From Lebetimonas sp. JH292 (GTDB lineage Bacteria > Campylobacterota > Campylobacteria > Campylobacterales > Nautiliaceae): DNA of 64,000 nucleotides. The position numbers and the translations under genes are program-made. The notes under the pieces are model-generated. The model saw only the letters and a list, made by a program, of their open reading frames with translations, was not told the origin of the DNA and ran no database searches. The stretch lies in assembly GCF_000523275.1 (NCBI RefSeq), contig NZ_ATHQ01000001.1:62001-126000 (forward strand). Reading direction: 5' to 3'. Shown here one piece after another: positions 3,107 through 50,207 of the stretch; position 1 is the stretch's first letter; the number at the start of each line of letters is the position of its first letter.

Positions 3107-4225
3107 ATGGAAAATGCGACTACCAATCTTTTCACAATAAAAGAAGAAATCGACGGGCCAAAAATTAAAGTAATCGGTGTCGGCGGCGGTGGAAACAATA
3201 TGATAAACTATATGGTGAACAAAGGGATAAAAGATGTTGAATTAATAGCTGCCAATACTGATATTCAGGCTTTAAAAACAAGTAAAGCCCATAAAAAAAT
3301 ACAGCTTGGTGTAAAACTTACAAACGGGCTGGGTGCTGGAATGAGGCCTGAAATAGGGGCAAAAGCTGCCGAAGAGAGTTTTGATGAAATAAAAGAAAGC
3401 CTTGAAGGAGCAGATTTAGTATTTATTTCAGCAGGAATGGGAGGCGGAACTGGTACAGGAGCGGCAAGTATTATTGCTAAAGCGGCAAAGGAATTAGGCG
3501 CCTTAACAGTAGGAGTCGTTACCAAACCTTTCAGATTTGAAGGCAGCAGAAGAGGTAAATTGGCTGAAATCGGTACAAATGAGCTTAAAAAAGAGGCAAA
3601 TTCAATAGTTGTAATACCCAATGACAAACTTTTAACAATAATAGACAGAAAGGTAGGAAGAAGAGAAGCATTCTCTCTTGTGGACGATGTATTGTTTAAA
3701 GCTGTTCATGGAATTTCAAATATGGTAATTTCATATGGTGAAAATGACATAAACGTTGACTTTAACGATTTAAAAACAGTAATGTCACATCAGGGATTGG
3801 CCCTTATGGGTGTGGGTGAGGACAAAGGTGAATCAGCCGCATTTAATTCCATAAAAAAAGCAATTGAATCTCCTTTACTTGACAACATTTCAATTGAAGG
3901 GGCTATGGGTGTGCTTGTTCATTTTACTATGCATGAGGATTATTCTCTTGATGAAATTTATGAGGGTATGAATATAATTGAAGAAAAAGCCCATGATGAT
4001 GCCGATATAATTTTCGGTACTTCAACAGATAACTCATTGGCACCTGACGAAATAAAAGTAACTATTGTCGCAACAGGCTTTGAAAAAAATGATGCGGCAA
4101 ATAAAGAAGATATCAAAAAAAATATTGAAACAATGTTGGTGGGAAAAGAAAAAGTAGTCGGCGGAATAGAACTTGATGTGGATGAGCTTGATATTCCGGC
4201 ATATATGAGAAGAATGAAAGATTAA
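3107..4225 (+). CDS. ftsZ: Cell division GTPase FtsZ
   Basis: Bacterial tubulin that polymerises into the Z ring. The 372-residue product has the N-terminal nucleotide motif GVGGGGNNMINYM (about residue 24) and the tubulin signature GGGTGTGAA (about residue 108), a T7-loop region, and the conserved C-terminal peptide LDIPAYMRR that binds FtsA. AAAAGGGG precedes the ATG. Length is normal for Campylobacterota FtsZ. The last four bases overlap the end of the convergent mlaE gene, so no separate terminator fits between them. Confidence 0.98.
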   Translation: MENATTNLFTIKEEIDGPKIKVIGVGGGGNNMINYMVNKGIKDVELIAANTDIQALKTSKAHKKIQLGVKLTNGLGAGMRPEIGAKAAEESFDEIKESLEGADLVFISAGMGGGTGTGAASIIAKAAKELGALTVGVVTKPFRFEGSRRGKLAEIGTNELKKEANSIVVIPNDKLLTIIDRKVGRREAFSLVDDVLFKAVHGISNMVISYGENDINVDFNDLKTVMSHQGLALMGVGEDKGESAAFNSIKKAIESPLLDNISIEGAMGVLVHFTMHEDYSLDEIYEGMNIIEEKAHDDADIIFGTSTDNSLAPDEIKVTIVATGFEKNDAANKEDIKKNIETMLVGKEKVVGGIELDVDELDIPAYMRRMKD

Positions 4226-5001
4226 AAAATTAAATAAAAGGCTGATATCACATAATCAGCCGCAAATACCACAACAGAAGAAACAACAACAGCCCTTGTG
4301 GTACTGATCCCCACTCCTTTGGCACCCCCTCTTGTATGATAACCTATATATGTTGAAATTGCACTTATCAAATAGCCAAATACAATTCCCTTTGTAATAC
4401 CTTCGTTAAAATCACTTAATTCTCCAAACTGTCTTATTTTATCCAGATACGCATAACCGTTTACATCAAGAGAATATATGGAAATCAAATAAGACCCTAC
4501 ATTAGCCACCGCATCAAAAAACAAAATCAATAAAGGAAGTGAAATAATTGTAGCAATAATTCTTGGAACTATCAGGAAATGTCTGGAATCCACAGCCATT
4601 ACATCAAGCGCATCTATCTGTTCGGTTACTCTCATACTTCCAAGTTCCGCTGCATAAGCGCTCATTCCCCTGCTAACCACCATTAATGCGGCGAATACGG
4701 GACCGAGTTCTTTAATCACAGATATAAATATCGTATAACCCATAAAATCATCTATCCCGAATTTATGAAATGCATCGTATAAATTTACAGCTTCAACAAG
4801 ACCTGTAAAAAAACCGGTTAAAAAGATAACACCGATTGAGCCGTAACCGATAAATGTAATCTGATCTAACAAATTTTTAATTCTGTACGGAGGTTTAAAA
4901 AAAAGAAAAAATATTTTTATTTGGAAAATAAAAAAATCGCCCAATATATTGATAAAATTTATTGTGTTTTTCCCGATATTATAAAAGAAGCGGTTTATCA
5001 A
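4222..5001 (-). CDS. mlaE: MlaE-family ABC transporter permease (lipid transport)
   Basis: Integral membrane permease of the Mla/Mce lipid-trafficking type, thought to move phospholipids between outer and inner membrane. The 259 residues carry several hydrophobic segments and the family signature AAELGSMRVTEQIDALDVM near residue 125, which is highly typical of MlaE. The N-terminus (residues 1-45) is an amphipathic leader. Its ATPase and MCE-domain partners are not in this window, so they must lie elsewhere. The gene converges with ftsZ and overlaps it by 4 bp; upstream it is divergent from fliL, with about 40 bp of AT-rich promoter space. Confidence 0.9.
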   Translation of the reverse strand: MINRFFYNIGKNTINFINILGDFFIFQIKIFFLFFKPPYRIKNLLDQITFIGYGSIGVIFLTGFFTGLVEAVNLYDAFHKFGIDDFMGYTIFISVIKELGPVFAALMVVSRGMSAYAAELGSMRVTEQIDALDVMAVDSRHFLIVPRIIATIISLPLLILFFDAVANVGSYLISIYSLDVNGYAYLDKIRQFGELSDFNEGITKGIVFGYLISAISTYIGYHTRGGAKGVGISTTRAVVVSSVVVFAADYVISAFYLIF

Positions 5002-6080: not shown

Positions 6081-7187
6081 TCACAAAAATTTTTTAAAAT
6101 ATATCTCTCCTTCTTTTCCAATAAAATCATAATTTAAATTCATATAAAGTCTCCCGCTTAATGCTAAATGGGGTAATGGGATAAATTTTTTAGATTTTAT
6201 AAATTTTTGATAAATTGGATCAGCAATTATATAATAAAATTCATCATTAAACTTTTTAAAACCCTCTTCAGTTTCTGTGAAACTGAAATTTTTATTTTCA
6301 AAAAAACAGCAGTTATTATTCAATAAATCATTTTTTATTGGGGAAGCGGCAAATGCTTCAATACCTAAATTTTTTTCAAAATATTCTTTTATACTCAAAG
6401 CTATAATTGGCTCGTGAATTATCAATACTTTTTTATTATTTACAGATTTTTTATTAATTAAATTTTTTATTGTTTCTCCCACAGGAAAACCTACAATATA
6501 TGGGATATCAAAATTCTTATGCATATATTCAGCTAATTTTAATCCGCTTGAAGTAATTACAATATTCAGAGCTGCTTTTGAACTTTCAATTAAGTTTTCA
6601 AAATTTTTTTCCATTCCCCAGATACTGATGATTTTATAATTTAAATTTTTCAGTAAATTAATTAATGGATTTAAATGCGTATGATGCCCTATATCGAGAT
6701 GTACAGCCCCGAGAATGTTTACAGTTTTTTCCTCTTTTTTTTGAGGTTTTAAAACAGTTTTAGCCAATTCTAAAAAAGCTCTTGAAGCGCCTTCACTATA
6801 TGTTTCAGTTCCTTTTGTATTAATATAAAAAAGAGGGATATTTAATTCTTTTTGAATAGTTTCAGATAAACCGTTTAAATCAGTTCCTATAATTGCGGAA
6901 ACAGGGGTGCCCATTAATACTAAAAATTTCGGTTTTAAGTTTTTTGCAACATTTATAATTCTATCGATAAATTTAGCATCATTTCCGAATACTGCATCCA
7001 TTTCTAAAAGTCCCGCACCTACTAATTTTGTTTTATTTCTATACCATCTGTATTCATCTCCGATATTTATATGCCATGCACCTCCTGCCGGACCGTATGT
7101 AATCATCAATCCTCCAAGTTCATATAGTGCTGAAGCAACCCCAAAATATCCTGAAGCAAGAGGTAAAAGATTATCTATTAATTTCAT
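6081..7187 (-). CDS. Nitrogenase component 1-like protein, NifK/BchB-type partner (function unknown)
   Basis: 368 residues. The order of conserved blocks follows NifK: a GPAGGAWH segment near residue 33 (NifK has GPxGC), then LLEMDAVFGNDAKFIDRI near residue 61, then MGTPVSAIIGTDLNGL near residue 92 (NifK has TTCxAExIGDD). At every position where NifK has a P-cluster cysteine this protein has Gly or Pro; its only cysteines are a CC pair late in the protein. It is therefore probably a structural partner that does not itself ligate a bridging cluster. A good AGGAG site precedes ATG 7187, and the gene starts 8 bp after the NifD-like gene. It is the last gene of the HydF/HydE operon. Not a nitrogenase; the substrate is unknown. 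Confidence 0.75.
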   Translation of the reverse strand: MKLIDNLLPLASGYFGVASALYELGGLMITYGPAGGAWHINIGDEYRWYRNKTKLVGAGLLEMDAVFGNDAKFIDRIINVAKNLKPKFLVLMGTPVSAIIGTDLNGLSETIQKELNIPLFYINTKGTETYSEGASRAFLELAKTVLKPQKKEEKTVNILGAVHLDIGHHTHLNPLINLLKNLNYKIISIWGMEKNFENLIESSKAALNIVITSSGLKLAEYMHKNFDIPYIVGFPVGETIKNLINKKSVNNKKVLIIHEPIIALSIKEYFEKNLGIEAFAASPIKNDLLNNNCCFFENKNFSFTETEEGFKKFNDEFYYIIADPIYQKFIKSKKFIPLPHLALSGRLYMNLNYDFIGKEGEIYFKKFL

Positions 7188-7195
7188 ATTTACTC

Positions 7196-8482
7196 CTATA
7201 TAAGATAGTTATATTTATATATCCAATCATAATTGCTGATTGGATTTTTAATATTTTCTTGTATTGAATCTAATAAATTTTTTAAATTTTCATATCCGTA
7301 AAAAGAGTGTTGATATCTTGAAAGAGGGATATTGACAGCATTTTGGCAAAATATACCGGCATCAACCCCAAACGCTAATTCTATATCGTTAAAAAAATTT
7401 ATATTTTCATTTAAATATGGATGTGAAACGTTATAAATATAGGTTTCAGGGGATATTTTAGACAATTCATTAATGTATTCTTTTTCATGAAGTTTTGGAG
7501 AATTTCTCAAAAAAACTGCTTTAACATTTCCTCCTAATTTTGTTAAAGCCAGTGCCAATTCCAAAGGATTGCCGTAAACACTGCTTCCAACAGCAATATT
7601 TTTATTTTTTATAAATTTGTTTTTACTTATTAAATTTTCATTATTTTTCTCTTTTATATTAATTTTTTTATTTGTTATTTCTTCAATTTTAGAATATTGT
7701 TTTTTTATTTCCAAAATATCGTAACTTACCGGTGCGAATATATAAGGAATATCTAACTCATTATACATTTTTTTTGCTAAAAGTAAGCCTAAAGGATGAA
7801 TCACGATATTTAATGAAGCAGAAGATAATTTATACAAATCATGGACATTTTTAAGTGTAGGAATTTGATAGATATTTTCATAACCCAACTTTTTAAGAAA
7901 AACCAATAATTCTGAATCTTCTTTCAATGGTATAAAAGTTCCTAAAATATTAACACTGTTTTTATTTATTTCTGTTTTTTTATCTTTTAAAATATCAATT
8001 AAAGATTGATATGCCAATTCAAAAGGGGAAGGTTTTAATCCTATCGTTAAAGGTGCCATTACTGTATATATTATTTCAATATTTAATTTTTTTTTCATAT
8101 TTTCAACTACATCTGTATAATCGCTTTCTAATAAATAATCGCAACATGTTCCCGCCAATATAAGTATTTCTGGCTTTTCTTTTTTTGAAATTTTTAAAAT
8201 AGCTTCTTCCACTTTTGAAAAATGTTTTCCCATTATAATATCTATTTCGTCAATATTCAGCATATAAAAACGCCCGTAAAAGTTTCTTGCATGGGACATA
8301 AAAGAGGAGTGTCTAAGACAGGCCAAAGGTCCCACCATCAGGCAAATACTGTTAGGCAAAAGTAAAGTGGTTTCAACCACTCCCCATCCTGCAAGATTCG
8401 GACCCATGGACTCCAGGGGTGCAAAAGGAAAATTTTTTTCATTTAATTCAGAAATTTTAACTCTTGTCTGTTCAATAAGCAT
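7196..8482 (-). CDS. Nitrogenase component 1-like protein, NifD/BchN-type (function unknown)
   Basis: 428 residues with NifD-like order: [11 protein letters not shown] (about 50-60, Cys55 where NifD has Cys88), [19 protein letters not shown] (about 77-95, NifD DIVFGG region), and [14 protein letters not shown] (about 109-122, Cys113/114 where NifD has Cys154). The first P-cluster cysteine of NifD appears to be missing. A late [16 protein letters not shown] block, His392, resembles the region holding the cofactor His in NifD. The start overlaps the end of the NifH-like gene by 11 bp, so the two are translationally coupled. The family includes nitrogenase, DPOR/COR, CfbCD and methylthio-alkane reductase; which chemistry applies here cannot be told from sequence alone. 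Confidence 0.78.
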
Positions 8483-9221
8483 CTAAAATCCTTTTTGCAA
8501 TTGAATAAAAATTTTTACTTATTTGAGCATTTTTGTCATATTCTATTACAGTTTTTCCTAAAAGTTCCGCCTTATTAATAGATTCATCCCTTGGTAAAAC
8601 TCCCAATATATCAACATTCATTTCTTTTGCAAAATTTTGTACTTTTTCCAATTCATTAGGTATATTTCTTAAATTGACAATAATTCCCAATAAAGATGCA
8701 TATCCTTTGTTTTTAAAATTTCTAACAGCTTTTATAATATTTTCTGCCGCAAAAAGAGACAGTTTTTCTCCGGATGTCACTACAATTACTTTTTCGGCAT
8801 ATCCTTTTCTCATTGGAACCGCAAAACCGCCGCATACAACGTCTCCCAAAACATCATAAAAAACAACTTCGGGTTTATATATTTCATAAGCATTCAATTC
8901 TTTTAAAAGTTCGAGTGCCGTTACAATACCTCTGCCCGCGCATCCTTGGCCGGGTGTTGGACCGCCAACTTCAAAAGTCACAGTATTTGCAAAACCTGTT
9001 TTTACTATTTCTTCGATTGATTTTGGCATACCATTTTCTTCAATATAACTAAGTATTGTTTTAGGAGGCACTCCTCCTAAAAGATTTATTGTAGAATCTG
9101 CTTTTGGATCGCAGCCTATTTGTATGACCCTTTTCCCCATTGTTGCAATAGCAGCGGATAAATTGGATGTAATTGTTGATTTTCCAATACCGCCTTTACC
9201 ATATATTGCTATTTTTTTCAT
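8472..9221 (-). CDS. NifH/BchL-like iron protein (ATP-dependent reductase component)
   Basis: 249 residues with all hallmarks of the nitrogenase iron protein: Walker [10 protein letters not shown] (7-15), switch GCDPKADST (36-44), and the two cluster cysteines, Cys94 in GQGCAGRG and Cys130 in [11 protein letters not shown], that hold a [4Fe-4S] cluster between two subunits. The Arg after Cys94 matches the regulatory Arg of NifH. It is about 40 residues shorter than true NifH, lacking the C-terminal extension, like other nitrogenase-like reductases. The product should deliver electrons, with ATP hydrolysis, to the adjacent NifD/K-like pair. Its ATG lies inside the last codons of hydE (ATGA-type overlap), tying it to [FeFe] hydrogenase maturation. 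Confidence 0.88.
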
Positions 9222-10225
9222 TGGTATTCCTTTATTTTTAATGAATTCCCTTTAGTTCTTGAAATTTTAATACCCGCTTTTGTAATTACATTTGTAGCTT
9301 CATTTATATCTACATAACGTTTTTTAGGTGCACATTGAAATTCAAATTCAATTTTTTTATTTTTACTTTCGAAAGAAGGGTTGCAATTTGGCATCAAAAC
9401 GTTACATCCACCTTTAGTAAAACATAAAAATTGCCCATTTTCAGGATTAAGTGTTGCAACTGTATTTGCGGCTGCAATATGCGTGTTTTTAGTTACAATT
9501 CTTGTTAATGCAAAAACTCTCAACATAAGATTAAAATTTCCGGAAGAAAACTTTTTTAAAGGTGTTTGCGGATGCGGAATAAAAGGACCTATATTTATCA
9601 TATCGGGTTGAAAATCCTGAAAAAACAGGATATCGTCTGCCAAATCATTGAAAGTTTGTTTTGGTAAACCCACAATATTGCCAGCTCCTACCTGGAAACC
9701 TGTTTTTCTTAAAAATTCTAACGCTTTTATTCTGTCTTTTAATTTTCTGCCGGGTCTCATTTTTTCATATAATTTTTCATTCATTGTTTCATGTTTCATT
9801 AAATACCTATCGGCTCCGGCATCTTTGAATGCTTTATAATCATCAAAAGACAACTCTCCCAAGCTCAATGTAATGGCTACATCATATTTTTTTTTGATTT
9901 GTCGGATAATGCTGCAGATTTTTTCTCTTGTAAAAAAAGGGTCTTCCCCTGATTGTAAAACTATGGTTTTTATCCCTTTTTGGGCAATTTCACCGGCTAT
10001 TTTAATTATAGTTTCTTCATCCATCCTAAAACGTTTCATTTCTTTATTACTTTTTCTTAAACCGCAATATAAACAATCACTGATACAATAATTGGAAAAA
10101 TGTATAACTCCCCTTATATGAGCTTCATTACCACAGTGTTTATTTCTGATTTCTGTTGCTCTTTCAAAAATTTTATTATCGTTTTTTATTAACGATAGAA
10201 TAATTTCAGTTTTATTTAACATCAT
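9218..10225 (-). CDS. hydE: [FeFe] hydrogenase maturation radical SAM enzyme HydE
   Basis: 335 residues. The block [20 protein letters not shown] (36-55) carries the radical-SAM cysteines Cys47, Cys51 and Cys54 in the CxxxCxxC spacing and the HydE-specific FSNYC context. Later [16 protein letters not shown] and the C-terminal [10 protein letters not shown] region also fit HydE. The enzyme acts on an organometallic iron precursor during assembly of the H-cluster diiron site with HydF and HydG. It lies between the C-terminal part of hydF (14 bp overlap) and the NifH-like gene (4 bp overlap). HydG, the usual third maturase, is not in this window. This is unrelated to the Wolinella-type HydE at 50298. 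Confidence 0.92.
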
Positions 10226-11478
10226 TTTTCAACTTTTTTCTTTCATTTTCAAACATCATTAAAGCAGCGGGGAAAGGGCTCAAAGTTCTCTTAATAACTC
10301 CCTGTAAAAAAGAAATCGCCATACCATAATTTGTAATAGGAACGTTAACTTCTTTTGCCATTTGTATGCGTGAAAGCATTCCTCTTCTATTTAATACACA
10401 TCCGCCGCAATGGATAATAAGTTTATAATCCGATACATTATCAGGGTAATCTTTTCCGGCATAAACATCAATTTGCAAATCCCCCCCCTACATACTGTTT
10501 AAGCCATCTTGGAATTTTAACCCTTCCTATGTCATCCTCCAAAGCATGATGAGTGCATGCTTCAGCTATTAAAACTTTATCTCCCGGCTTAAGAGCATCT
10601 ATATGTGCGGTGCCCCTGGCTTGTTCCAGTAAATCTCCTTTATAACGGGAGAAAAGTATCGAAAAGGTTGTCGCTTTTATATCTTTTGGAATATCCGCAA
10701 CCATTTTTAATACCCCCTGTGAGTCACATACTACAATATCGGGTTTTTGATTTAAAATAGACATTGCATATGAAAGTTCTCTTTCTTTAACAATCAGTGC
10801 CATGGAATCGTTATCCAAAGTGTCTCTTATAGTTTGAACCTGGGGAAGTATCAATCTGCCTTTAGGAGCTTCTAAATCAATAGGAACAACCAAAACAGCC
10901 AATCCCCCTGAGGGGATTAAATCACCTATTAACGCCGGCGGTTGTAAAAAATCAGATGGGCAAATATCAATAATGTGTTTTTTTAAAGCATTAATATATT
11001 TTTCTTTATTATCACTGTCTAAACTTGAAACTTTAATAATGTTTTTTCCAAAAATTGATTCAAGTTTATTTATAAATTCATCCGAAGGCTTTTGTAAATC
11101 GATTTTATTAATAACAGCAATTAAAGGAATTTTTTTTTCTTTTATTATCTGAATTATATTTTCTTCATAATCAGTCCATTTATCAGGCTCTAAAATTAAT
11201 AAACAAATATCAGTTTTTTTAAGAACATTTAAAGTTTTTTCTATTCTTAAGTTTCCCAAAACTGAATTATCATCAAATCCAGCTGTATCTAAAAAAACAA
11301 CCGGTCCTATTGGCAATAATTCCATTGTTTTTTCGACAATATCTGTTGTAGTTCCGGCAACAGGGGAAACAATCGAAATATTTTGTCCTGTAATCATATT
11401 TAAAAAAGACGATTTTCCGACATTTGTTCTTCCAAAAACACCGATATGTAATCTTAAACCTTTAGGTGTTGATATCAT
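10212..11478 (-). pseudogene. hydF: [FeFe] hydrogenase maturation GTPase HydF, reading frame interrupted at a G8 tract
   Basis: HydF is the scaffold that carries the diiron precursor to the hydrogenase. The first frame (10468-11478, 336 residues) has the GTPase motifs GRTNVGKS (about 15-22), DTAG and NKID, and the CTHH part of the cluster site, but ends at KQYVGGGFAN. The remaining C-terminal domain (10212-10478), with the essential IIHCGGC cluster motif, is in another frame. The junction is a run of eight G on the coding strand (10481-10488); with seven G the frames join to 421 residues, the normal HydF length, reading YVGGDLQIDVYAG. The 1267-bp span equals 422 codons plus one base. Sequencing error, phase variation or real mutation are all possible. 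The start overlaps aspA by 17 bp. Confidence 0.88.
10481..10488. repeat. Homopolymer of eight C (G8 on the coding strand) at the hydF frame break
   Basis: An eight-base C run, which is long for this AT-rich sequence. It sits exactly where the hydF N- and C-terminal frames diverge; a length of seven restores one frame. Poly-G tracts of this length are known contingency loci in Campylobacter, but they are also sites of sequencing error. Confidence 0.9.
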
Positions 11479-12865
11479 TAAACAGCTCCTTTAATTTATT
11501 CTTATCATATCCAAGAGAATTAAGATTTTCAGGAAAAAATAATTCAAGAATTTTTTCGCCAAATCTATTTTTTAAAAATTCTTTTATATTCGTTATGTTT
11601 TTATTTTGTATTTCTTTTACAATTTTTAATGTTTTCTCATAACCTATCAAAGGGAGTAAAACGGTTAAAATTGAAAAGCTTTCTTCAAAATATTTATTAC
11701 ATATTTTTTCATTTGCTTTAATTTCTTTAATATGTTCTTTCAAGTTTACAGTTATATTCAAAAGCAATTTTAAAGATTCTATAAAACTAAATGCTATTAA
11801 AGGCATAAATTCAACAATTTGAAAAGATGACAAAGAAACACAGTCTCTTATTACATTAAAATCGGATTTAACTTTTATTGCTGTTTGCATTGCAGATTCA
11901 AGTATTACGGGATTTATTTTGCCAGGCATTATAGAAGAACCGGCTTGAGCTGGCTTTAATTTTATTTCTTTTAAAAAATTCATAAGACGTATATCATTAG
12001 AAATTTTAAATAAATTTGAAGAATAAGCATCAAGAATACCTACAACTTCCACAATATCATCTGCAAAAGCGGTTACACTTACAGGATTTTCAGCACGGGA
12101 AATATTTAATCTAGTTAAATCTCTTAAAATTTCAATAACCAAAAAAATATACTCCCTAGGGGCGGTTAAACCAGTTCCTATTGCAGTAGAACCAATATTT
12201 AAGACCCTTATTCTCTCTTTGCATTTCCATATTCTCCATCTGTCTCTGGATATAGCTTCGGCAAAAGCCGAAAATTCCCTGCCGAGAGTAAAAGGGACTG
12301 CTTCTTGAAGTTCTGTCCTCCCGATTTTTAAAATGGATGCAAATTCTTTTTCTTTTTTTTGTAGAATATTTTGAAAATCCGCTATAACTTCGCTTAATTT
12401 TTCCAATAAAAAAAGCGCCGCTATTTTTAATGTGCCTGGATATGTGTCATTTGTTGATTGGTGAAGATTTACATGTTCAAGCGGATGTATCGGATAATAT
12501 TTACCTTTTGGATATCCTAATATTTCATTTGCCCTGTTAGCTATCACTTCATTTATATTCATATTTGTTGATGTGCCAGCGCCACCTTGCAATGCGTCCA
12601 CTATAAAATCTTCCTGAAATTTTTCATCGATTATTTCGTCACAGGCATTACATATTGCATTGGCATATTCTTCGCTGAGATAATTTAATTTAGCATTTGT
12701 TGTTGCACATGCTTTTTTAACCAATGCATATGATTTAATCAACTCATTTGGCACTTTATATCCGGATATTTGAAAATTATTATAGGCTCTTGCGGTATGT
12801 ATACCGTAATATCTATCAGATGGAATCTTTACTACACCTAAACTGTCTTTTTCTTCTCTAAACAA
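11462..12865 (-). CDS. aspA: Aspartate ammonia-lyase (aspartase/fumarase superfamily) in the [FeFe] maturation operon
   Basis: 467 residues. GGAGTSTNMNINEVIANRA (94-112), HPLEHVNLHQSTND (127-140) and the superfamily loop GSSIMPGKINP (309-319, with the catalytic Ser) identify an aspartase/fumarase-class lyase; the first two blocks favour aspartase, giving fumarate and ammonia from aspartate. Start is TTG 12865, with GGAGG about a dozen bases upstream. Aspartase genes commonly sit in [FeFe] maturation operons (for example in Bacteroides); why is not settled, and supply of ammonia to the dithiomethylamine bridge is one speculation. The gene is the first after a hairpin terminator and overlaps hydF by 17 bp, so it probably begins the maturation transcript or receives attenuated read-through. 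Confidence 0.85.
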   Translation of the reverse strand: MFREEKDSLGVVKIPSDRYYGIHTARAYNNFQISGYKVPNELIKSYALVKKACATTNAKLNYLSEEYANAICNACDEIIDEKFQEDFIVDALQGGAGTSTNMNINEVIANRANEILGYPKGKYYPIHPLEHVNLHQSTNDTYPGTLKIAALFLLEKLSEVIADFQNILQKKEKEFASILKIGRTELQEAVPFTLGREFSAFAEAISRDRWRIWKCKERIRVLNIGSTAIGTGLTAPREYIFLVIEILRDLTRLNISRAENPVSVTAFADDIVEVVGILDAYSSNLFKISNDIRLMNFLKEIKLKPAQAGSSIMPGKINPVILESAMQTAIKVKSDFNVIRDCVSLSSFQIVEFMPLIAFSFIESLKLLLNITVNLKEHIKEIKANEKICNKYFEESFSILTVLLPLIGYEKTLKIVKEIQNKNITNIKEFLKNRFGEKILELFFPENLNSLGYDKNKLKELFNDINT

Positions 12866-12894: not shown

Positions 12895-12920
12895 TAAAAA
12901 GAGCTGAACAGCTCTTTTTA
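12895..12920 (-). terminator. Hairpin terminator/attenuator between [FeFe] structural and maturation genes
   Basis: A near-perfect inverted repeat, AAAAAGAGCT and AGCTCTTTTT around a 4-base loop, ends in a T run on the minus strand and includes the cytochrome b stop codon. It lies between cytochrome b (12918) and aspA (12865). It is symmetrical, so it could work on either strand, but only minus-strand genes are nearby. It probably lowers expression of aspA-hydF-hydE-nif-like genes relative to the hydrogenase itself. Confidence 0.75.
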
Positions 12921-13592
12921 TTGTTTTATTGAGTTAATTTGAACTAAATCGTCTTCAACCCATTTAGGGGAATGATGTTCGGCGGCATCAAAAGGCATAT
13001 AACCGCTGTCCAGTCTCCACATTGCTTTAAAATCTTCTATGTTTATTATTGAAAGAGGCAAATGAACAAACGTTACAAGGGCTGTAGTTATTATAGAACC
13101 CCAAACATGGAAATAAAAGAAATAAAGCATAAGTTCTTTGCCAAGCCCTTGTTTTGCAAAATAAAGCGCCCATCCTGTTACTATCAATCCGAAAATCATA
13201 AATATAAAAATTAAATAAGCGACTTTTTGTCCAGCATTATATTTTCCTTGAGGAGCAGTTTTTTCAGGACCGAAAGGAATACCGAACATTCTGGGATATC
13301 CGCCTAAATTTTTAAACCATGCAAATGTGTCTTTATCCCATTGTAATAAATTTTTCATTATAATATAAAACCTGTCCGGTACTATTAAAATAAAAGAAAT
13401 AAAATTCAAAGTAAAAACAATTGCCGTCCAGATGTGAACTTCCATTAAAAACTTAGCACTTTCACCTGATGCCCATTTAAAATATACAGCCATTCCGGTA
13501 AAGGCTAATATATACCATGTAATTGCATTGATGTTATGAAACATTTTTTCATAAACAGGAAATCTCAATACCCTTTCATTTTCAGCAAGCAT
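12918..13592 (-). CDS. Membrane cytochrome b subunit of the [FeFe] hydrogenase
   Basis: 224 residues with four hydrophobic spans (about 22-42, 52-75, 125-145, 160-185) and histidines in or beside them (HNINAITWY, HIWTAIVF, FHVWGSII, FVHLPL) suited to bind two b hemes, as in the FdnI/HydC-type di-heme cytochromes. It should take electrons from the periplasmic hydrogenase and reduce menaquinone. It overlaps the small-subunit gene by 11 bp, so the three genes form one unit. The ATG has a GGAGG site inside the end of that gene. Confidence 0.87.
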   Translation of the reverse strand: MLAENERVLRFPVYEKMFHNINAITWYILAFTGMAVYFKWASGESAKFLMEVHIWTAIVFTLNFISFILIVPDRFYIIMKNLLQWDKDTFAWFKNLGGYPRMFGIPFGPEKTAPQGKYNAGQKVAYLIFIFMIFGLIVTGWALYFAKQGLGKELMLYFFYFHVWGSIITTALVTFVHLPLSIINIEDFKAMWRLDSGYMPFDAAEHHSPKWVEDDLVQINSIKQ

Positions 13593-13944
13593 GTTTTCCT
13601 CCTTTTAAATTTAAGTTGGTTCTAACAACATATACTTTTGTATGTAAAAGTTCTTCTGATATTTCACTCATCGGATGGTTCGCAAATTTTTTATAAAATT
13701 CCTGAACAGCAGGATTTTCATACGAAGCTGCCAATCCTTTTTGCTGTAATCTTATATCATCTTTATATAAACCAGCTTGTCTCATTTTAATGTATTTATT
13801 TCTTTTTTTGAAAAGATCTGTAATCACATAACCTCCAACAGCAATAACCGATACTATAACCCCTGTAACTTTAAGAAAAGTTCTTCTGTCTATTAAAGTG
13901 GTGGCAGGTTTTTCTTCATATTGATAAGGTAATTTTTCATTCAT
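13582..13944 (-). CDS. Periplasmic [FeFe] hydrogenase small subunit with Tat signal
   Basis: The frame is open further upstream, but ATG 13944 is chosen because AGGAGG lies 6 bases before it. The 120-residue product has a Tat signal, DRRTFLKVTG followed by a hydrophobic stretch (about 20-45), and then the small-subunit domain (AVQEFYKKFANHPMSEISEELLHT) typical of Desulfovibrio-type HydB. It wraps around the catalytic subunit and, through its Tat signal, takes that subunit across the membrane as one folded complex. The large subunit has no signal of its own. The enzyme is therefore predicted to be periplasmic, oxidising H2 rather than producing it in the cytosol. Confidence 0.88.
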   Translation of the reverse strand: MNEKLPYQYEEKPATTLIDRRTFLKVTGVIVSVIAVGGYVITDLFKKRNKYIKMRQAGLYKDDIRLQQKGLAASYENPAVQEFYKKFANHPMSEISEELLHTKVYVVRTNLNLKGGKHAC

Positions 13945-13964
13945 TTTTATCCTCCTTTTATATT

Positions 13965-15305
13965 TTAAGCATTTAATCTTAAAGGTAATAACGGGTCTAT
14001 CCATGAAGTTCCCATTGGATTAACCGGCTGCCCTCCTCCGTCAATACAACCTCCGGGACAATTCATTACTTCAATTATGTGGTAAGGTGAAGTGCCTTTT
14101 ATTACATCTTTAACAATTTTATCAAGATGGTTTTTTATCCCGTTAACTACAGCGGCTTTTACCACAATTGTTTTTCCGGATTTAAGAGTAATAGGAATTT
14201 CTGCTTCTCTTAATCCGTCAGTATGTCCCCTTACTGCATAAAAATCCCATTTAGGCGGTTCTTTTTCAGAAAGAATATAATAAACTGTTCTAAGAGCAGC
14301 TTCCATAACGCCTCCACTGTTACCAAATATTGTGCCAGCTCCCGTGTAAATTTCCGTTTCCGTTTCATTTTCTTTTTCCGGTAACTCAAGAGGATTAATT
14401 CCTTTCATTTTAAGTAATGTGGCTAAATCCCTTGTTGTAAGCACTACATCTGTATCAGGGAATGGAGGGGTGTCTTCTGGAATATAACCTTTTTCTTTTA
14501 AAAATTTCCAAGAAGATTTGAATTCCGGTCTGCTTGCTTCAAATATTTTAGCGGTACACGGCATTATTCCGACAGTGTAAACGTTTCTCGGATCCACTTT
14601 CCAAATGTCTAAAGCAGCCCAAGTTTTTGCTGAAGGACCTGCTATTTGCATAGGGGATTTGGTGCCTGATATATGCGGAATCAACCCCGGATAATAAATT
14701 TCTGCATATCTAACCCAACCGGGACAGCAAGATGTAAAATGTGGTAAAGGATGATTTGCCATTTTATTTAATTCTTCGCTTCTTTCTCCTAACAGCCAGT
14801 ATTTTACTTTTGCTATAAATTCGCTTCCTTCTTCCATAATTGTTTGATCGGCCGCTAAATTGTTTTCATAAATTTTAAAACCCGCTTTTTTTAATGCATT
14901 ATGAAGTTTTCCAACTGTTAAAGTACCGGGAGGTGCTCCAAATTCTTCGGCTATTGCCACACGGACCGCAGGGGCTATTACCGCCACAACAGTTTTTTCT
15001 TTATTTTCCAGATTTTTCATTACCTCTTCTACAAAACTTAATTGTTCTATTGCACCGAATGGGCAGTTAATTAAACATTGTCCACAAGCAATGCATTTCA
15101 TTTCATCAATTGAGTGGGCAACACCAATAGCACCGTTTATCGCATCTGCTGGACATACATGTCTGCAGGTGTCGCAGCCTACACAGCTTTGAGAATTTAT
15201 TTTAATAATACCTTTTAATTCTCCCGCTCTGTATGTACCCGTTGCTATATTTACATAATTTTTCTCTGTAGGAGAAAAAGTTTTAACCTTGGCTGTTTTT
15301 TTCAT
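13965..15305 (-). CDS. hydA: Periplasmic [FeFe] hydrogenase catalytic (large) subunit
   Basis: 446 residues. Two [4Fe-4S] ferredoxin motifs, Cys41/44/47/51 and Cys71/74/77/81, feed the H-cluster domain. The three H-cluster signatures are intact: TSCCPGW (191-197), MPCTAKIFEA (249-258) and EVMNCPGGCIDGGGQP (412-427), giving cluster ligands Cys193, Cys250, Cys416 and Cys420. The two-ferredoxin layout with a separate Tat small subunit matches the Desulfovibrio HydAB group A enzyme. AAAGGAG lies before ATG 15305. It is first in an operon with the small subunit and cytochrome b. The short form without extra N-terminal cluster domains is normal for this class. Confidence 0.95.
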   Translation of the reverse strand: MKKTAKVKTFSPTEKNYVNIATGTYRAGELKGIIKINSQSCVGCDTCRHVCPADAINGAIGVAHSIDEMKCIACGQCLINCPFGAIEQLSFVEEVMKNLENKEKTVVAVIAPAVRVAIAEEFGAPPGTLTVGKLHNALKKAGFKIYENNLAADQTIMEEGSEFIAKVKYWLLGERSEELNKMANHPLPHFTSCCPGWVRYAEIYYPGLIPHISGTKSPMQIAGPSAKTWAALDIWKVDPRNVYTVGIMPCTAKIFEASRPEFKSSWKFLKEKGYIPEDTPPFPDTDVVLTTRDLATLLKMKGINPLELPEKENETETEIYTGAGTIFGNSGGVMEAALRTVYYILSEKEPPKWDFYAVRGHTDGLREAEIPITLKSGKTIVVKAAVVNGIKNHLDKIVKDVIKGTSPYHIIEVMNCPGGCIDGGGQPVNPMGTSWIDPLLPLRLNA

Positions 15306-37784: not shown

Positions 37785-38765
37785 TTAGCATATCCTCGGC
37801 AGCAATTCACCTTTTGGAAGTTCAATATACCTGCTTGAACCCCATGGTGATTTTAATACAACTTTATTTCCCTGCGTTACTTTTCCTATAACAGAAGCGT
37901 TCGGATTAAATTTTTTTAATATTTCCTCAGCTTTTTTGGCATCTTTTTCACTTACGGCCACAATAAAGGTTCCTTCATTTGCCAAATCCATAGGTTCAAA
38001 TCCAAAAATTTCACAAAGACCCACGACATCATTACTAACAGGGACTTTTTCCTCATTTATTTCAATACCAATATTACTTGCATTTGCCCATTCATTCAAA
38101 ACGGCGCTTAATCCGCCTCTTGTTGCATCACGCAAAGCTTTTATATCTATACCTTCATTTATAAGAGCTTCTATTTCATTCCATAATATTTTACAATCGG
38201 TTTTTGCTTCGGTATCCACACCGTATCTGTGGGCCATAATGATACTGCCGTGTTTTCCAATATCTCTGCTAACCAATACAATATCTCCGGGTGTAAGATT
38301 ATGGGCTGAAATGTTTTCTTTTTGTATATGCCCCACTCCGCTGGTATTTATAAAAATTTTATCAACACTTCCAGCAGGAACGACTTTTGTATCACCGCAG
38401 ACTATTTTCGCCCCTATTTTGTTCAACTCTTCACTCATTGTTTTTACAATTTTTTCAAGTGTTTCAAAATCTAAACCTTCTTCTATCATAAAACCGCAGC
38501 TTAAATATTCAGGTTTCGCACCCATCATAGCCAAGTCGTTACAGGTTCCGGCAACTGCAAGTTTTCCTATATTTCCTCCGTTGAAAAAAAGCGGGCTGAC
38601 GGTAAAAGAATCAGTCGTAAAAGCTATTTTTCCGTTTGCATTCAAAACAGCTGCGTCTTCGGCACTTGTTAAAATATCGTTATTGAAATATTTATAAAAA
38701 AGTTCATTTATCAGTTTATTGGTTTCTTCTCCTCCTCCGCCGTATGCGAGAGTTATTTTATTCAT
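37785..38765 (-). CDS. hypE: [NiFe] hydrogenase maturation protein HypE
   Basis: 326 residues with the AIR-synthase/PurM fold. The start LAYGGGGEETNKLI, the ATP-binding DAAVLNANGKIAFTTDSF and FNGGNIGKLAVAGTCNDLAMMGAKP regions, and the C-terminal LLPRIC, whose Cys is carbamoylated by HypF and dehydrated to thiocyanate, are all intact. It supplies cyanide ligands to iron on HypCD. It follows hypD after a spacer containing a period-7 tract. Confidence 0.96.
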   Translation of the reverse strand: MNKITLAYGGGGEETNKLINELFYKYFNNDILTSAEDAAVLNANGKIAFTTDSFTVSPLFFNGGNIGKLAVAGTCNDLAMMGAKPEYLSCGFMIEEGLDFETLEKIVKTMSEELNKIGAKIVCGDTKVVPAGSVDKIFINTSGVGHIQKENISAHNLTPGDIVLVSRDIGKHGSIIMAHRYGVDTEAKTDCKILWNEIEALINEGIDIKALRDATRGGLSAVLNEWANASNIGIEINEEKVPVSNDVVGLCEIFGFEPMDLANEGTFIVAVSEKDAKKAEEILKKFNPNASVIGKVTQGNKVVLKSPWGSSRYIELPKGELLPRIC

Positions 38766-38849: not shown

Positions 38850-39968
38850 TTATCTTGCATATCTGTAATAAGCATTGCATGCACCCTCATCACTTACCAT
38901 ACAGCTTCCGTAAGGGGTTGAAGGAGTACAGGCCTTGCCGAAAAGTTTACAGTCGGTTGGATTTGCAAGACCTCTTAAAATTTTTCCACAAATACATAAT
39001 TTATGGTCGTCAATAGGTTCATTTGGCAATACATCCGCATATATTTTTTCAGCATCAAACTCGGCATATTCATCTTTTAATTTAAGGGCGGAAAAAGGTA
39101 TGTCTCCAAGCCCCCTCCATCTAAAAGTTTCCCTCACTTCCATAAACTCATCAATCATTTTTTGAGCCAGCACATTTCCATCCCAGGTAGTTACTCTTTT
39201 ATACTGATTTTCAACACGGGGTTTTTTTTCAAGTTTTTGTTTTAACAACATTAAAATACTTTCCATAACATCAACCGGTTCAAACCCGGCAACAACAACA
39301 GGTGTGTTATATTCATCCACTAAAAACTGATAACTTTTAGCCCCTATTATAACACTTACGTGACTGGGACCGATAAAAGCGTTAATTCTTGCTTCCCCGC
39401 TGTCCATAATAGCCCTCATCGGAGGCGGAACCAAAACATGATTTATATGATAATAAATATTTTTAACTCCCTCATCAAAAGCTCTTTTCATAAGTGCGGC
39501 GGTCATAGGAGTTGTTGTCTCAAACCCTATTGCGAAAAAAACAACCTTTTTATCAGGATTTTCTTTTGCAATATTTAAAACATCAAAAGTGGAATGGAGT
39601 GCTCTTATATCATAACCTTCAGCCCTTGTTTTTGCAAGGCTTGATTTGCTTCCCGGAACCCTTATCATATCCCCGAGAGTTGCAAGTATGACGTCCGGCT
39701 GTTTTGCCAAGGTAATGGCATGGTCTATTCTTTCTTTTGGCATTACACATACAGGGCATCCGGGACCGTGAATAAATTCAATATTTTCAGGCATAAGTTG
39801 TTTGATACCGTACTTCATGATGGTATGAGTATGTCCTCCGCAAATTTCCATAACCCTCATAGGCTCGTCAAGATCTTTGGCAAGCCTGTGGATTTCCTTA
39901 CTTAAAGCTTTTATGGTGTTTGGGTCTCTGAATTTAAAATATAAATCTTTTAAACTGAGTTCACTCAT
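38850..39968 (-). CDS. hypD: [NiFe] hydrogenase maturation protein HypD
   Basis: 372 residues. Conserved motifs: MEICGGHTHTIMKYG (about 41-55), FIHGPGCPVCVMP (about 65-77), FFAIGFETTTPMTA, and the C-terminal cysteines CICGKILRG and GKACTPSTPYGSCMVSDEGAC that bind a [4Fe-4S] cluster. HypD with HypC forms the scaffold where iron receives CN and CO. It overlaps hypC by 8 bp. Confidence 0.96.
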   Translation of the reverse strand: MSELSLKDLYFKFRDPNTIKALSKEIHRLAKDLDEPMRVMEICGGHTHTIMKYGIKQLMPENIEFIHGPGCPVCVMPKERIDHAITLAKQPDVILATLGDMIRVPGSKSSLAKTRAEGYDIRALHSTFDVLNIAKENPDKKVVFFAIGFETTTPMTAALMKRAFDEGVKNIYYHINHVLVPPPMRAIMDSGEARINAFIGPSHVSVIIGAKSYQFLVDEYNTPVVVAGFEPVDVMESILMLLKQKLEKKPRVENQYKRVTTWDGNVLAQKMIDEFMEVRETFRWRGLGDIPFSALKLKDEYAEFDAEKIYADVLPNEPIDDHKLCICGKILRGLANPTDCKLFGKACTPSTPYGSCMVSDEGACNAYYRYAR

Positions 39969-40269
39969 TCTCAGCCTCCGGTTTATATAAAAGCGGACCT
40001 TCTTCTTTTACCAAATCTTCAGGTGCAATCGGATTTTCATCCTCCATCGAAGCTTCCGCCAGCTGTTTATACACTTCAATACTTTCGAGTGCAAATTTTT
40101 CATCAATTTTACTCATAGCATATCCGACATGAATTAATACATAGTCGCCCGGTTTTACCTCTTCCTGGATTAAATCAAGGCTTACTTTTCTTTTAACCCC
40201 CAATGTATCAACTTCGGCCATATTTTTTTCATCAACTTTTAAAACTTTACTCGGTATTGCCAAACACAT
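39961..40269 (-). CDS. hypC: [NiFe] hydrogenase maturation chaperone HypC
   Basis: 102 residues beginning MCLAIPSKV; Cys2 is the essential iron-binding residue. GDYVLIHVGYAMSKID (about 42-57) is the second family motif. The acidic C-terminal tail (about 75-102) is longer than in E. coli HypC. It carries the Fe(CN)2CO unit with HypD to the hydrogenase large subunit. It lies between hypB and hypD. Confidence 0.95.
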   Translation of the reverse strand: MCLAIPSKVLKVDEKNMAEVDTLGVKRKVSLDLIQEEVKPGDYVLIHVGYAMSKIDEKFALESIEVYKQLAEASMEDENPIAPEDLVKEEGPLLYKPEAENE

Positions 40270-44490: not shown

Positions 44491-45240
44491 TCAACAGATA
44501 ATTACAGGAGTATTGTTATAAAAAAATATATTTAAATTAATTTCATAAATATCTTTTAAAATATTTTTATTAATTTCATTCTTTTTACACTGATATTTAA
44601 TTATTCCGTTTTTCATAAATATCAGCTTATCCGAATATTTCAAAGAAAGATTTATATCATGTATAATAATTATAGTTATTAATTCTTTTTCTTTTGTAAT
44701 TTTTTTTATAAAATTAAGAATTTCCAACTGATTTTTTAAATCAAGATTATTTGTGGGCTCGTCAAGCAATAATATTTTGCTCTCCTGTACAATAGCTCTC
44801 GCTATTGCAATTTTTTGAAATTCCCCTCCGCTTATTTCATTTATCTGTTTATTTTTTAATTCATTTAAATTCAGTTTTTCTATTATTTCATTTACTTTAT
44901 CAATATCTTCTTTTTTGGGAAAGAACTTAAAATAAGGCTTTCTTCCAAGCATTAAATAATCATATGTATTCAAATCGGTAATATCGTTTTTTTGTGATAC
45001 ATAACCGATTGTTTTGGCAAACTCGTTTATTTTTAATTTGTTTAAGTTTTTCTCATTTAAATAAACAGTGCCTTTTAAAGGTTTTAATATTTTTGCTATA
45101 TTTTTAAGCAATGTGGATTTCCCTGCTCCGTTCTTTCCTGAAATAGAAACAATTTCCCCTTTTTTAGCCTCAAAAGTAATATCTTGTAATATTTTTGAAC
45201 TTTTATAAGAAAATTCAAGATTATTTATTTTTAATTTCAT
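44491..45240 (-). CDS. Iron-siderophore/corrinoid-type ABC transporter ATPase
   Basis: 249 residues from ATG 45240 (AGGGG upstream; the longer open frame is inside the permease gene). Walker A SGKNGAGKSTLL (about 34-45), signature EISGGEFQK, Walker B LLLDEPTNNLD. FepC/BtuD/FecE type. It follows the permease by 1 bp. The substrate is iron chelate, heme or corrinoid; sequence cannot decide. Confidence 0.88.
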   Translation of the reverse strand: MKLKINNLEFSYKSSKILQDITFEAKKGEIVSISGKNGAGKSTLLKNIAKILKPLKGTVYLNEKNLNKLKINEFAKTIGYVSQKNDITDLNTYDYLMLGRKPYFKFFPKKEDIDKVNEIIEKLNLNELKNKQINEISGGEFQKIAIARAIVQESKILLLDEPTNNLDLKNQLEILNFIKKITKEKELITIIIIHDINLSLKYSDKLIFMKNGIIKYQCKKNEINKNILKDIYEINLNIFFYNNTPVIIC

Positions 45241-45241
45241 T

Positions 45242-47424: not shown

Positions 47425-48057
47425 ATGAGCTGCATCTATTGTAATCATTATATTTTATACAAATTAAAAAACGGATATTACAAATGCGCAAAATGCAAAA
47501 GAAAATTTTCACCGAAAAAAATTGAGCGGAAAGCAAAAATATTAAAAGGATTTTTAGATGAATTAAATCCCACGGAAATTGCTGAAAAATATAATATTTC
47601 ATACGCAACGGTGGTAAAAGAAATACAAAACATAAGAAAAATAGTTGTAAATATTTGTGAAGAGGAATTTTTAAAAAAGCAGGATTTAAAAGAGTTTAAT
47701 GAATATTTATATATACCCAAAACAAACAGAAAAAATAAAAATTCCATTTATAAAGCGCAAAATTTTTTAACTATCGATTATGGAGGGAAAATATACAATA
47801 TACTGCTAAGCGATATGCAAAAATACAAAAATTTAAGTTATGAGGAAATTAAATCTCTTCTAAGGCAATCGCAGTTGATTAAAATACAAAAACAGATTTT
47901 AATATATCAGTTTTGGGAATATTTTGAAACATTTATTACCAAATATAAAGGTATCAAGGAAAAAAATTTTATATATTATTTAAAAGAAGCCGAATTCAGA
48001 TTTAACAATTTTAAACTAAGCGTAAGTGAACTCGTAAATTATGAGATTCATCTATAA
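47425..48057 (+). CDS. Zinc-ribbon/HTH protein related to IS1595-type transposases (possibly domesticated)
   Basis: 210 residues. A C4 zinc ribbon (MSCIYCNHYI...YYKCAKCKRKF, cysteines near 3, 6, 23, 26), then a helix-turn-helix (LNPTEIAEKYNISYATVVKEI, about 46-66), like the N-terminus of IS1595-type transposases; the end KEAEFRFNN resembles their C-terminal NEFxFRFNR. I cannot find a DDE catalytic triad, and no terminal inverted repeats are visible, so it is probably no longer a transposase and may act as a DNA-binding regulator. It converges with hypF, overlapping by 6 bp. Confidence 0.6.
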   Translation: MSCIYCNHYILYKLKNGYYKCAKCKRKFSPKKIERKAKILKGFLDELNPTEIAEKYNISYATVVKEIQNIRKIVVNICEEEFLKKQDLKEFNEYLYIPKTNRKNKNSIYKAQNFLTIDYGGKIYNILLSDMQKYKNLSYEEIKSLLRQSQLIKIQKQILIYQFWEYFETFITKYKGIKEKNFIYYLKEAEFRFNNFKLSVSELVNYEIHL

Positions 48058-50207
48058 ATTCCAAACTCCGTATGCTGCCTGCCCAACGCTGATACCCCCG
48101 TCGTTAACGGGAATTTTCTGATTAAAATAAAAACCATCTACTAAAGATAACATGGTTTTATTTTGAAAAACACCGCCTGTCAATAATACAGGCAGATTAT
48201 AATTTTTTGAAATCTTTTTTATTAAATTGGCAAGGGAATTTAAAAAAACAGAAGAAATTAATTCAAAATTTCCCCTGTTTTTTGCCAAAAATTCAATTAA
48301 AGGATAAAAATTAATTCTTTTATTAATTTTTAAATCAATATATTCTTTTATTAAAGGATTGTAATATCTTTCAATCAGCATTCCGGAAAACCCCTCATAT
48401 TCATTTCTTTCTATCATTCCGCCTAAAAATGCGACCATATCAAATATTCTTCCTACAGATGAAGTTAGAGGAAAATTTCCGTTTTTTAAGGAAGAGGCCA
48501 ATTTATAATTTGAATATTTTTTTCCAATTTCATCATTTAAAAGACTGACCGCCATATTAGCAGGATATTTAACAGCTTTTTCTCCCCCTATTAATTTAAA
48601 ATATTTAAAATGATGTACTCTTTCAAAATTTTTTCTGTTTGCTATAAAAACTTCACCTCCCCAAATAGCCCCGTCGTCTCCGTATCCGGTCCCGTCCCAT
48701 GCAAACACCAAAGCTTCATTTAAATCAAATTCAAAAAGCCCGCTTAATGCATGTGCGAAGTGATGTTGAATTTGAATAATTTCTTTTTTTTGATTTTTTG
48801 CCCATTTTGTAGATTCATAATACGGATGTTTATCACAGATTATAATATCTTCTTTAAAATCATAAAGTCTTCTAAAAGTCTCAATTGTCCTTTCAAAATA
48901 CTCAATACTGTCAATTGTGCCTAAATCCCCAATATGAGGCGATAGTATCATTTTATTATTAAAGGCAAGGGTTATAGTATTTTTCTGATTAGCTCCAACT
49001 GCAAGTATATTTGGTTTTATATTTTGTTTAATACTAAATGATTTTGGAGCATATCCACGTGAGAGTCTCATAGTGATAAACTTATTTTTAACACTTTGTA
49101 CAACCGAATCATCGCATGCGTTTACAATATCCCTGTTATAATCAAGTATATAATCTACAACATTTCCAAGTTTTTTAATTAACTCATCACTATCTCTTAT
49201 AATTGGATCGTTGCTTATATTAGCGCTTGTAGCAACTATAGGAAAATCTAAAAAGTTAAAAAGTAAAAAATGCACGGGGGTATAAGGCAAAAACACGCCG
49301 TATTTTCCGATACCGGGAGCAATGCCGGTTAGCTCTTTTTTCTTTTTTACAATAACTATCGGTTTTTCTTTTGAAAGAATTAATTTTTCATCATTTTCAT
49401 TTATTTCACAGTATTTTTTTATATTTTCAATATTTTTAAACATAATTGCAAAAGGTTTGGAAGGTCTTCTTTTTCTTTCTCTCAATTCCAAAACCGCTTT
49501 TTCGTTTGTAGCATCACATACTAAATGAAAACCTCCCAGTCCTTTGATAGATACAATTTTACCCTTCTTTTATTTTTTCAGCAATAAATTCAATCTTTTC
49601 AATTTCTTCATTAAATTCAATAGTTCTATATTTTTCACTTTCAACTTTACATTTAACACTGAGTTTCGGCCCGCAGTCATAACAGCTTATCGGCTGGGCA
49701 TGATATCTTCTGTCCATCGGATTAGTATATTCCCTGTAACATTTTTCACACATTTTAAATTTTTTCATTGAAGTATTAATTCTATCATAAGGAATATTTT
49801 TTATAATCGTATATCTAGGACCGCAGTTTGTGCAGTTAATAAACGGATACAAAAACCTTCTGTTATTTTTATCATACATTTCTTTCAAACACTCCTCACA
49901 TACACAGATATCAGGAGATATTGAAGTGGTTTTTGTAGTTTCTTTTGATTCTTTTATTATAAAATTTTTATATCCCTTAAAAGATAAAACTTCTTTTTTA
50001 ATAGAATCAATTCTTGCGAGAGGAGGAAGATTTTGTTTTTAAAACATCGATAAATTTATCTATATTTTCACCCTCTATTTCAACAATCACACCGTCAGAA
50101 CTGTTTAAAACATATCCTCTGAGATTTAATTTTTTAGCAATTTTGTATACAGTGGGTCTAAAACCTACACCCTGGACTATTCCGTTTATTTTATATCTTA
50201 TTCTCAT
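48052..50207 (-). pseudogene. hypF: Carbamoyltransferase HypF, frame broken twice by single extra bases
   Basis: Three consecutive frames make one HypF. The acylphosphatase part (MRIRYKINGIVQGVGFRPTV) breaks near 50030 in KTKSSSSRKN; removing one A in AAAA reads TNLPPLARID. The zinc-finger part (CEECLKEMYD...INCTNCGPRYT; KMCEKC...ISCYDCGPKL) breaks at 49559 after AEKIKEG; removing one G of GGG reads EGKIVSIKGLGGF. The last part (48052 on) holds the YrdC and Kae1-like domains. The span is 718 codons plus two bases, giving 717 residues, near the usual 750. HypF makes the carbamoyl group for cyanide ligands, so loss would disable [NiFe] hydrogenases; error or very recent mutation is likely. Confidence 0.9.
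49630..49664. repeat. Degenerate 7-nt tract inside hypF
   Basis: Heptamers ATTTTTC, ACTTTCA, ACTTTAC, ATTTAAC, ACTGAGT on the plus strand. It encodes LSVKCKVESEKYR just after the second zinc-finger CYDCGPK block, where HypF proteins usually have a short variable segment, so the tract looks inserted in a tolerated site. Confidence 0.65.

Follow-up and report, generated by a model that had tools for sequence, protein, structure and literature searches.

The subject of this analysis is a run of nine genes in a 64,000-nucleotide stretch of Lebetimonas sp. JH292 DNA (contig NZ_ATHQ01000001.1, positions 62,001 to 126,000 of the forward strand), which is referred to below, at its full length, as the window. 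On the minus strand, from 15305 down to 6081, open reading frames and family checks give the order hydA, hydB, cytochrome b, aspA, hydF, hydE, nflH, nflD and nflK, where genes of an [FeFe] hydrogenase and of the radical S-adenosylmethionine (SAM) and scaffold proteins of its maturation are followed by genes for a nitrogenase-like complex, designated here NflHDK:

13965..15305, minus strand: hydA, large subunit of [FeFe] hydrogenase, the client of maturation (TIGR02512, 405 bits)
13582..14004, minus strand: hydB, small subunit of [FeFe] hydrogenase (PF02256, 58 bits)
12918..13592, minus strand: cytochrome b subunit, directly downstream of hydB (PF01292)
11462..12865, minus strand: aspA, aspartate ammonia-lyase (NF008909, 516 bits, cut-off 510)
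10212..11478, minus strand: hydF, GTPase scaffold (TIGR03918, 438 bits, cut-off 325.6, scored on 10468-11478)
9218..10225, minus strand: hydE, radical SAM maturase (TIGR03956, 297.5 bits, cut-off 254.6)
8472..9221, minus strand: nflH, NifH-like ATP-dependent reductase of 249 residues (PF00142, 293 bits)
7196..8482, minus strand: nflD, first subunit of nitrogenase component-1 type, 428 residues (PF00148, 102.3 bits)
6081..7187, minus strand: nflK, second subunit of nitrogenase component-1 type, 368 residues (PF00148, 104.7 bits)

The one-strand succession of aspA, hydF, hydE and NifH-, NifD- and NifK-like genes, reported in a preliminary description of this DNA, was borne out by the coordinates of the reading frames, by HydE and HydF scores above the curated cut-offs and by the assignment of NflD and NflK to PF00148. 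Overlaps of 17, 14, 4 and 11 base pairs (bp) and an 8-bp gap proved to be exact, with the correction that the 14-bp overlap presumes read-through of hydF. The frame of this gene is broken at a run of eight G residues (10481-10488), the sole G/C run of at least seven in the window, and the C-terminal 88 residues, including the HCGGC cluster motif, sit in the next frame (10212-10478), with the real end at 10212. HydE has all three cysteines of the radical-SAM motif CxxxCxxC. AspA, whose role in hyd operons has been described (PMC11736057), is the likely source of ammonia for bridging dithiomethylamine, and the cytochrome b subunit is probably the membrane partner of the hydrogenase. Alignment of HydA to a periplasmic [Fe] hydrogenase (8ru6) found the H-cluster motifs TSCCPGW, MPC and CPGGC intact, and since these cysteine motifs are kept the enzyme requires an H-cluster.

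To our knowledge, HydG has been taken as the sole source of carbon monoxide (CO) and cyanide (CN) in [FeFe] hydrogenases. By the standard route it converts tyrosine to iron-bound CO and CN, and the Fe(Cys)(CO)2(CN) unit goes to HydE and from there to HydF (PMC11736057). No HydG was found in the whole Lebetimonas genome (1.64 Mb, 5 contigs, 99.68% complete), where the HydG model finds only hydE, whose 64 bits lie below the cut-off of 312. The absence of this gene from the window, noted previously, was thus extended to the entire genome by profile search, and the normal hydG which, according to the same description, might be encoded elsewhere was not there.

Relatives were collected by scanning an NflH alignment over about 85,000 species genomes, and the best 80 loci were kept; locus counts cover these 80 only. 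In the NflH tree the window copy groups with copies from Thermodesulfobacteriota (support of 95 in the Shimodaira-Hasegawa-like approximate likelihood ratio test) and then with a sister clade from Firmicutes, Coriobacteria and Lentisphaerota, called set A (99), while a second Nfl set of the same bacteria (set B) and iron-transporter-linked copies fall apart from this group. Closest among the matches listed are two Ca. Desulfofervidaceae, one Desulfobacterales and one Desulfovibrionaceae genome, all of Thermodesulfobacteriota. The order aspA-hydF-hydE-nflHDK is repeated at three loci (L007, L008, L011), and a short contig (L009) shows hydE-nflHDK. The run in Ca. Desulfofervidaceae (L007/L144) comprises hydA, hydB, a small open reading frame, hypE, hypC, aspA, hydF, hydE, nflH, nflD, nflK, hypF and hypD, so that hydrogenase, both maturation systems and nitrogenase-like genes share one neighbourhood. 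Two peculiarities of these operons may be mentioned separately: the HydE motif is changed to CxxxDxxC in all four (L007, 8907-9923; L008, 8907-9923; L009, 3-1007; L011, 4840-5898), and at L011, from a Desulfovibrionaceae metagenome-assembled genome (MAG), a [NiFe]-hydrogenase large-subunit-like gene is inserted between hydF and hydE (3181-4824).

Set A sits directly before hypF, hypC, hypD and hypE. Its clusters usually contain set B and, if the flanking sequence extends far enough, also hydF and hydE, with the layout nflHDK-hypF-(hypC)-hypD-hypE-nflHDK. Across the 80 loci hypF was registered at 69, hypD at 65, set B at 61, hypE at 58 and hydE/hydF at 20. Eight loci have no such gene; six of them are on contigs that end near the match, and two (L022, L079) are true exceptions. 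The motifs of the Hyp proteins are kept without exception (LPRIC at the C-terminus of HypE in 53/53 relatives, GPGCPxC of HypD in 63/63, two zinc fingers of HypF in 66/66), and therefore cyanide synthesis should work; HypC was found by its motif in 20 loci. The nearest relatives thus adjoin hydE/hydF or sit in hypFCDE clusters of HydF-positive genomes without hydG, and do not lie mostly away from hydE and hydF, which the preliminary description had named, in combination with a normal hydG elsewhere, as the outcome that would speak against a role in maturation. A local accident of linkage to hyd genes, first suggested by the neighbours of plasmid copies, was overturned by the genome scan. Searches of plasmids gave only distant Nfl with iron ATP-binding cassette (ABC) transporters, and viral contigs gave no Nfl relatives in single-protein and small-alignment scans. 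Within the phylum NflD was absent from all other genomes sampled (347), and the window operon was therefore probably acquired from elsewhere.

The idea of a nitrogenase-like complex acting instead of HydG in the assembly of the H-cluster, put forward in the preliminary description, is thus supported by the genome-wide absence of HydG and by the neighbours of the nearest relatives, but that description overlooked the HypCDEF half of the system, which is encoded together with nfl in relatives and elsewhere in the same window:

37785..38765, minus strand: hypE (blastp to a relative's HypE, 285 bits; C-terminus PRIC)
38850..39968, minus strand: hypD (blastp to a relative's HypD, 307 bits)
39961..40269, minus strand: hypC (start motif MC[LIV]..P; adjoins hypD and hypB)
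48052..50207, minus strand: hypF, divided among three frames (collinear TIGR00143 matches between 48076 and 50192, the strongest with 498 bits, cut-off 466)

In the window hypE, hypD, hypC, hypB and the split hypF accompany a [NiFe] hydrogenase, and the region is otherwise normal. An iron/B12-type ABC transporter (44491-47207) adjoins hypF; other bacteria have transporters of this type alongside more distant nflHDK.

For co-occurrence with HydG, 50 of the best 80 genomes were picked blind to HydG status, with preference for good assemblies and hyd-linked loci. HydF was present in 48/50 and HydG exceeded the cut-off in only one, a Christensenella genome with a normal hydE-hydG-hydF run and with Nfl that is not hyp-linked. 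Three matches to the HydG model near 200 bits were tested as divergent HydG and this was ruled out, all three being ThiH; one genome (G362) gives a partial 139-bit match. The exclusion was then counted in samples of two classes, whose centre genomes carry the clade by construction and where more than 550 bits defined membership in the NflD clade. Among 223 genomes of Clostridia, 151 have HydF, and the clade was registered in 0/137 of those that also have HydG and in 7/14 of those lacking it (Fisher p=1.1e-8, kinship ignored). For 180 Negativicutes genomes, HydG was found in 124 and the clade in 15, with no overlap (Fisher p=5.7e-9, kinship likewise ignored). Taken together, HydG is present in 0/22 genomes of both samples carrying this NflD clade, and Clostridia, Negativicutes, Coriobacteria and Thermodesulfobacteriota all show the same pattern. 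Three further of the 14 HydF-positive Clostridia without HydG have set-B-like nflHDK but lack the set A clade (L110, L111 and L113 in G584, G466 and G522), adjoining hydE in two of them (G584, G466). In G584 an iron/B12-type ABC transporter is located between nflHDK and hydF.

The large subunit of [NiFe] hydrogenase is present in the window organism and missing in 38/50 genomes with the clade. HypFCDE therefore has no known client in these 38 except, by linkage, [FeFe] hydrogenase, and service to a [NiFe] enzyme was rejected for most Firmicutes. A physiological counterpart is provided by Blautia luti, which produces H2, has H2:MV (methyl viologen) hydrogenase activity in extracts and holds only [FeFe] enzymes, hydABC and hydM, in its genome (PMC12773636). 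The genome of this species used here encodes HydE and HydF together with HypFDE and both Nfl sets, and lacks HydG and the [NiFe] large subunit. The strain of that paper and the genome used here are perhaps not identical, and B. luti is likely a cultured species with active [FeFe] hydrogenase but without HydG.

Profile search placed NflH under all curated cut-offs for NifH, CfbC, BchL and BchX: 305.6 bits against 394 for the NifH equivalog, 289 against 402 for CfbC, 202 against 345 for DPOR and 196 against 331 for COR. It retains Walker A and both [4Fe-4S] cysteines (C94, C130). By alignment, two of the three NifD cysteines that bind the P-cluster are matched in NflD by C55 and C113, and a cysteine is missing at the ligand position of the iron-molybdenum cofactor (FeMoco). 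The structure model of NflD, with a predicted local distance difference test score (pLDDT) of 81.7, has NifDK, NifEN, DPOR and methylthio-alkane reductase as top PDB matches. NflK of the window type keeps 0/3 aligned P-cluster cysteines of NifK, and its DE.RW motif (D44, E45, R47, W48) is invariant across 23 relatives. Several Firmicutes loci have single NflD-like frames of 790-904 residues, apparently nflD-nflK fusions. No NifB-like radical SAM partner was found in the window operon or among genes identified in related clusters. Nitrogen fixation and sulfur salvage of the Mar type were both rejected as roles in view of the scores, the residues and the lack of NifB-like partners. The residue pattern fits a complex that, like DPOR or NifEN, uses ATP to donate electrons to a bound substrate, rather than an enzyme with a cofactor of N2 type.

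The sequences show linkage of the genes, loss of HydG with retention of HydE and HydF, an association with HypCDEF, and HypE, HypD, HypF, NflH and HydA with their motifs intact, all of which is in line with the proposal that NflHDK and HypCDEF replace HydG. As a whole, and separately from CO chemistry, this replacement is strongly supported by genomics and on these sequence grounds appears highly probable; the chemistry we infer as follows. HypF and HypE would supply the cyanide ligand from carbamoyl phosphate, an assignment in which we have considerable confidence, and HypC with HypD would carry iron. In the literature cyanide is made by HypEF from carbamoyl phosphate, the CO source in anaerobic hydrogenase maturation is called unresolved, and HypC carries Fe and CO2, while the HypD cluster (-260 mV) is too weak for CO2 reduction (-530 mV) without ATP coupling (PMC6886295). 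Free Fe proteins of NifH type reduce CO2 to CO in vitro (PMC9571451). NflH-NflDK would use ATP to deliver electrons of low potential for making the CO ligands, with reduction of iron-bound CO2 as the most likely reaction, or else would complete the Fe-CO-CN unit; of these, CO formation is suggested tentatively, its chances falling slightly short of even, and scaffold assembly is rather doubtful. The unit, formed or assembled with HypCD, would pass to HydE as maker of the two-iron species, and HydF would receive the bridging amine, with ammonia from AspA, and load HydA. We infer in the same way that the nitrogenase-like complex supplies a ligand.

Several observations weigh against this proposal. 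The normal product of HypCD is Fe(CN)2CO and not Fe(CO)2CN, and the step from two cyanides to one is left unexplained. Both hydF and hypF are frame-broken in the window, which may be due to sequencing error or decay and, for the G run of hydF, also to a real slippage site. Since [NiFe] hydrogenases are found in the window organism and in Thermodesulfobacteriota, the Hyp proteins have another client there. The class tests leave shared ancestry out of account. Four Clostridia (G535, G593, G626, G629; L115-L118) with HydF and without HydG gave no Nfl match at 1e-25, and therefore another route or missing sequence exists. Finally, HydF and HydE alone can give about 1% activation via stray ligands (quoted in PMC9431212).

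HydG would still be replaced if NflHDK were a scaffold or insertase similar to NifEN, with HypCDEF alone giving CN and CO and with NflDK assembling or reducing the Fe-CO-CN unit for HydE by means of ATP-driven electrons from NflH. In favour of this, the CO of [NiFe] enzymes in anaerobes is believed to be produced by HypCD itself (PMC6886295), NifEN and NifDK match the NflD model about equally well, NflD lacks a cysteine at the FeMoco position, and the presence of two Nfl sets in most Firmicutes could point to a two-step process. However, in the HydG pathway HydE already accounts for reduction and dimerisation (PMC11736057) and one Nfl set suffices in the window genome, and this variant, which differs in chemistry only, seems to us possible but rather unlikely. 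We regard as improbable that the linkage of Nfl and HypCDEF to hydE/hydF has nothing to do with H-cluster ligands, serving for instance H2-dependent reduction of some other substrate, while hydrogenases lacking HydG live on scavenged ligands. More distant Nfl relatives that have iron/B12-type ABC transporters but no hyd genes as neighbours, and that also occur in HydG-positive genomes, would suit such a function, as would the low activation by HydE-loaded HydF (PMC9431212) and the four Clostridia without Nfl. Such a function would nevertheless leave unexplained why HydG is excluded wherever this one Nfl clade occurs in the two classes sampled, why HypCDEF is present without a [NiFe] client and why the genes from hydA to hypD form one run in L007. 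Still less probable is that HydG is present but too divergent, or lost through incomplete assembly, the linkage being an added function. Many of the genomes are indeed drafts or MAGs, and unusual HydG-like radical SAM proteins have been proposed in acetogens without HydG (PMC9431212), but with the HydG model even HydE scores about 60 bits and ThiH about 200, and real HydG would therefore exceed this noise. The completeness of the window organism's genome does not favour such a loss either, nor does Blautia massiliensis (L032), in which a 3.5-Mb contig of a 3.7-Mb genome yields only ThiH-level matches.

If NflHDK and HypCDEF do act in place of HydG, many anaerobes, including H2-making species of the human gut, appear to build the [FeFe] active site without it. 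There would then be a second natural route to the H-cluster, with CN from carbamoyl phosphate via HypEF and CO produced, probably from CO2 on HypC/HypD iron, by a nitrogenase-like enzyme that runs on ATP; this route would be present in several phyla including gut H2 producers and would represent a new function of the nitrogenase superfamily in building a hydrogenase cofactor. In this complete form we hold the arguments for and against to be evenly balanced. Should it be true for several phyla, two independent biosynthetic routes would lead to the H-cluster, and the Hyp pathway would be shared by two unrelated hydrogenases. Where the CO ligand comes from when anaerobes mature their hydrogenases (PMC6886295) could then be tested directly in cultured gut bacteria. 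A function is also suggested for nitrogenase-like genes that are common in gut genomes and are maybe counted as nitrogenases in surveys. All described H-cluster routes draw CO and cyanide from HydG, whereas each protein family of the present system is as such known. The earlier statement that no system of this kind had been described agrees with a search of 5.4 million open-access papers, subscription papers and bioRxiv lying outside it, which found none, and novelty is provisional to this extent.

Compared with HydEFG maturation, the operon likewise unites HydE, HydF, AspA and HydA and the same end product is expected, but HydG is absent and NflHDK with HypCDEF stand in its place. HypF, HypE, HypD and HypC have the intact catalytic and metal-binding motifs of [NiFe] maturation, whereas here they are encoded with nflHDK and hydE/hydF, mostly in genomes without [NiFe] hydrogenase. 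With nitrogenase-like enzymes of Group IV (Mar, Isr, Nfa, CfbCD) Nfl shares a NifH-type ATPase and a two-subunit component 1 with no N2 fixation genes alongside, but it has neither a NifB-like radical SAM partner nor sulfur genes and is tied to hydrogenase maturation. DPOR (BchLNB) resembles it in having a component 1 without a ligand for a FeMoco-type cofactor and, as the residues suggest, an electron-transfer cluster at the subunit interface; unlike DPOR, Nfl has no chlorophyll genes beside it and scores far under the DPOR cut-offs. Similar in gene content, by the description given, are Clostridium acetogens: HydG was not detected in several of them, and HypCDEF without HypAB occurs in C. 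ljungdahlii, C. autoethanogenum and relatives, both facts being left unexplained and a HydG candidate being reported in C. autoethanogenum (PMC9431212). The authors did not connect nitrogenase-like genes with this similarly odd set in C. ljungdahlii and its relatives, and the replacement of HydG by NflHDK and HypCDEF offers a possible answer to their puzzle.

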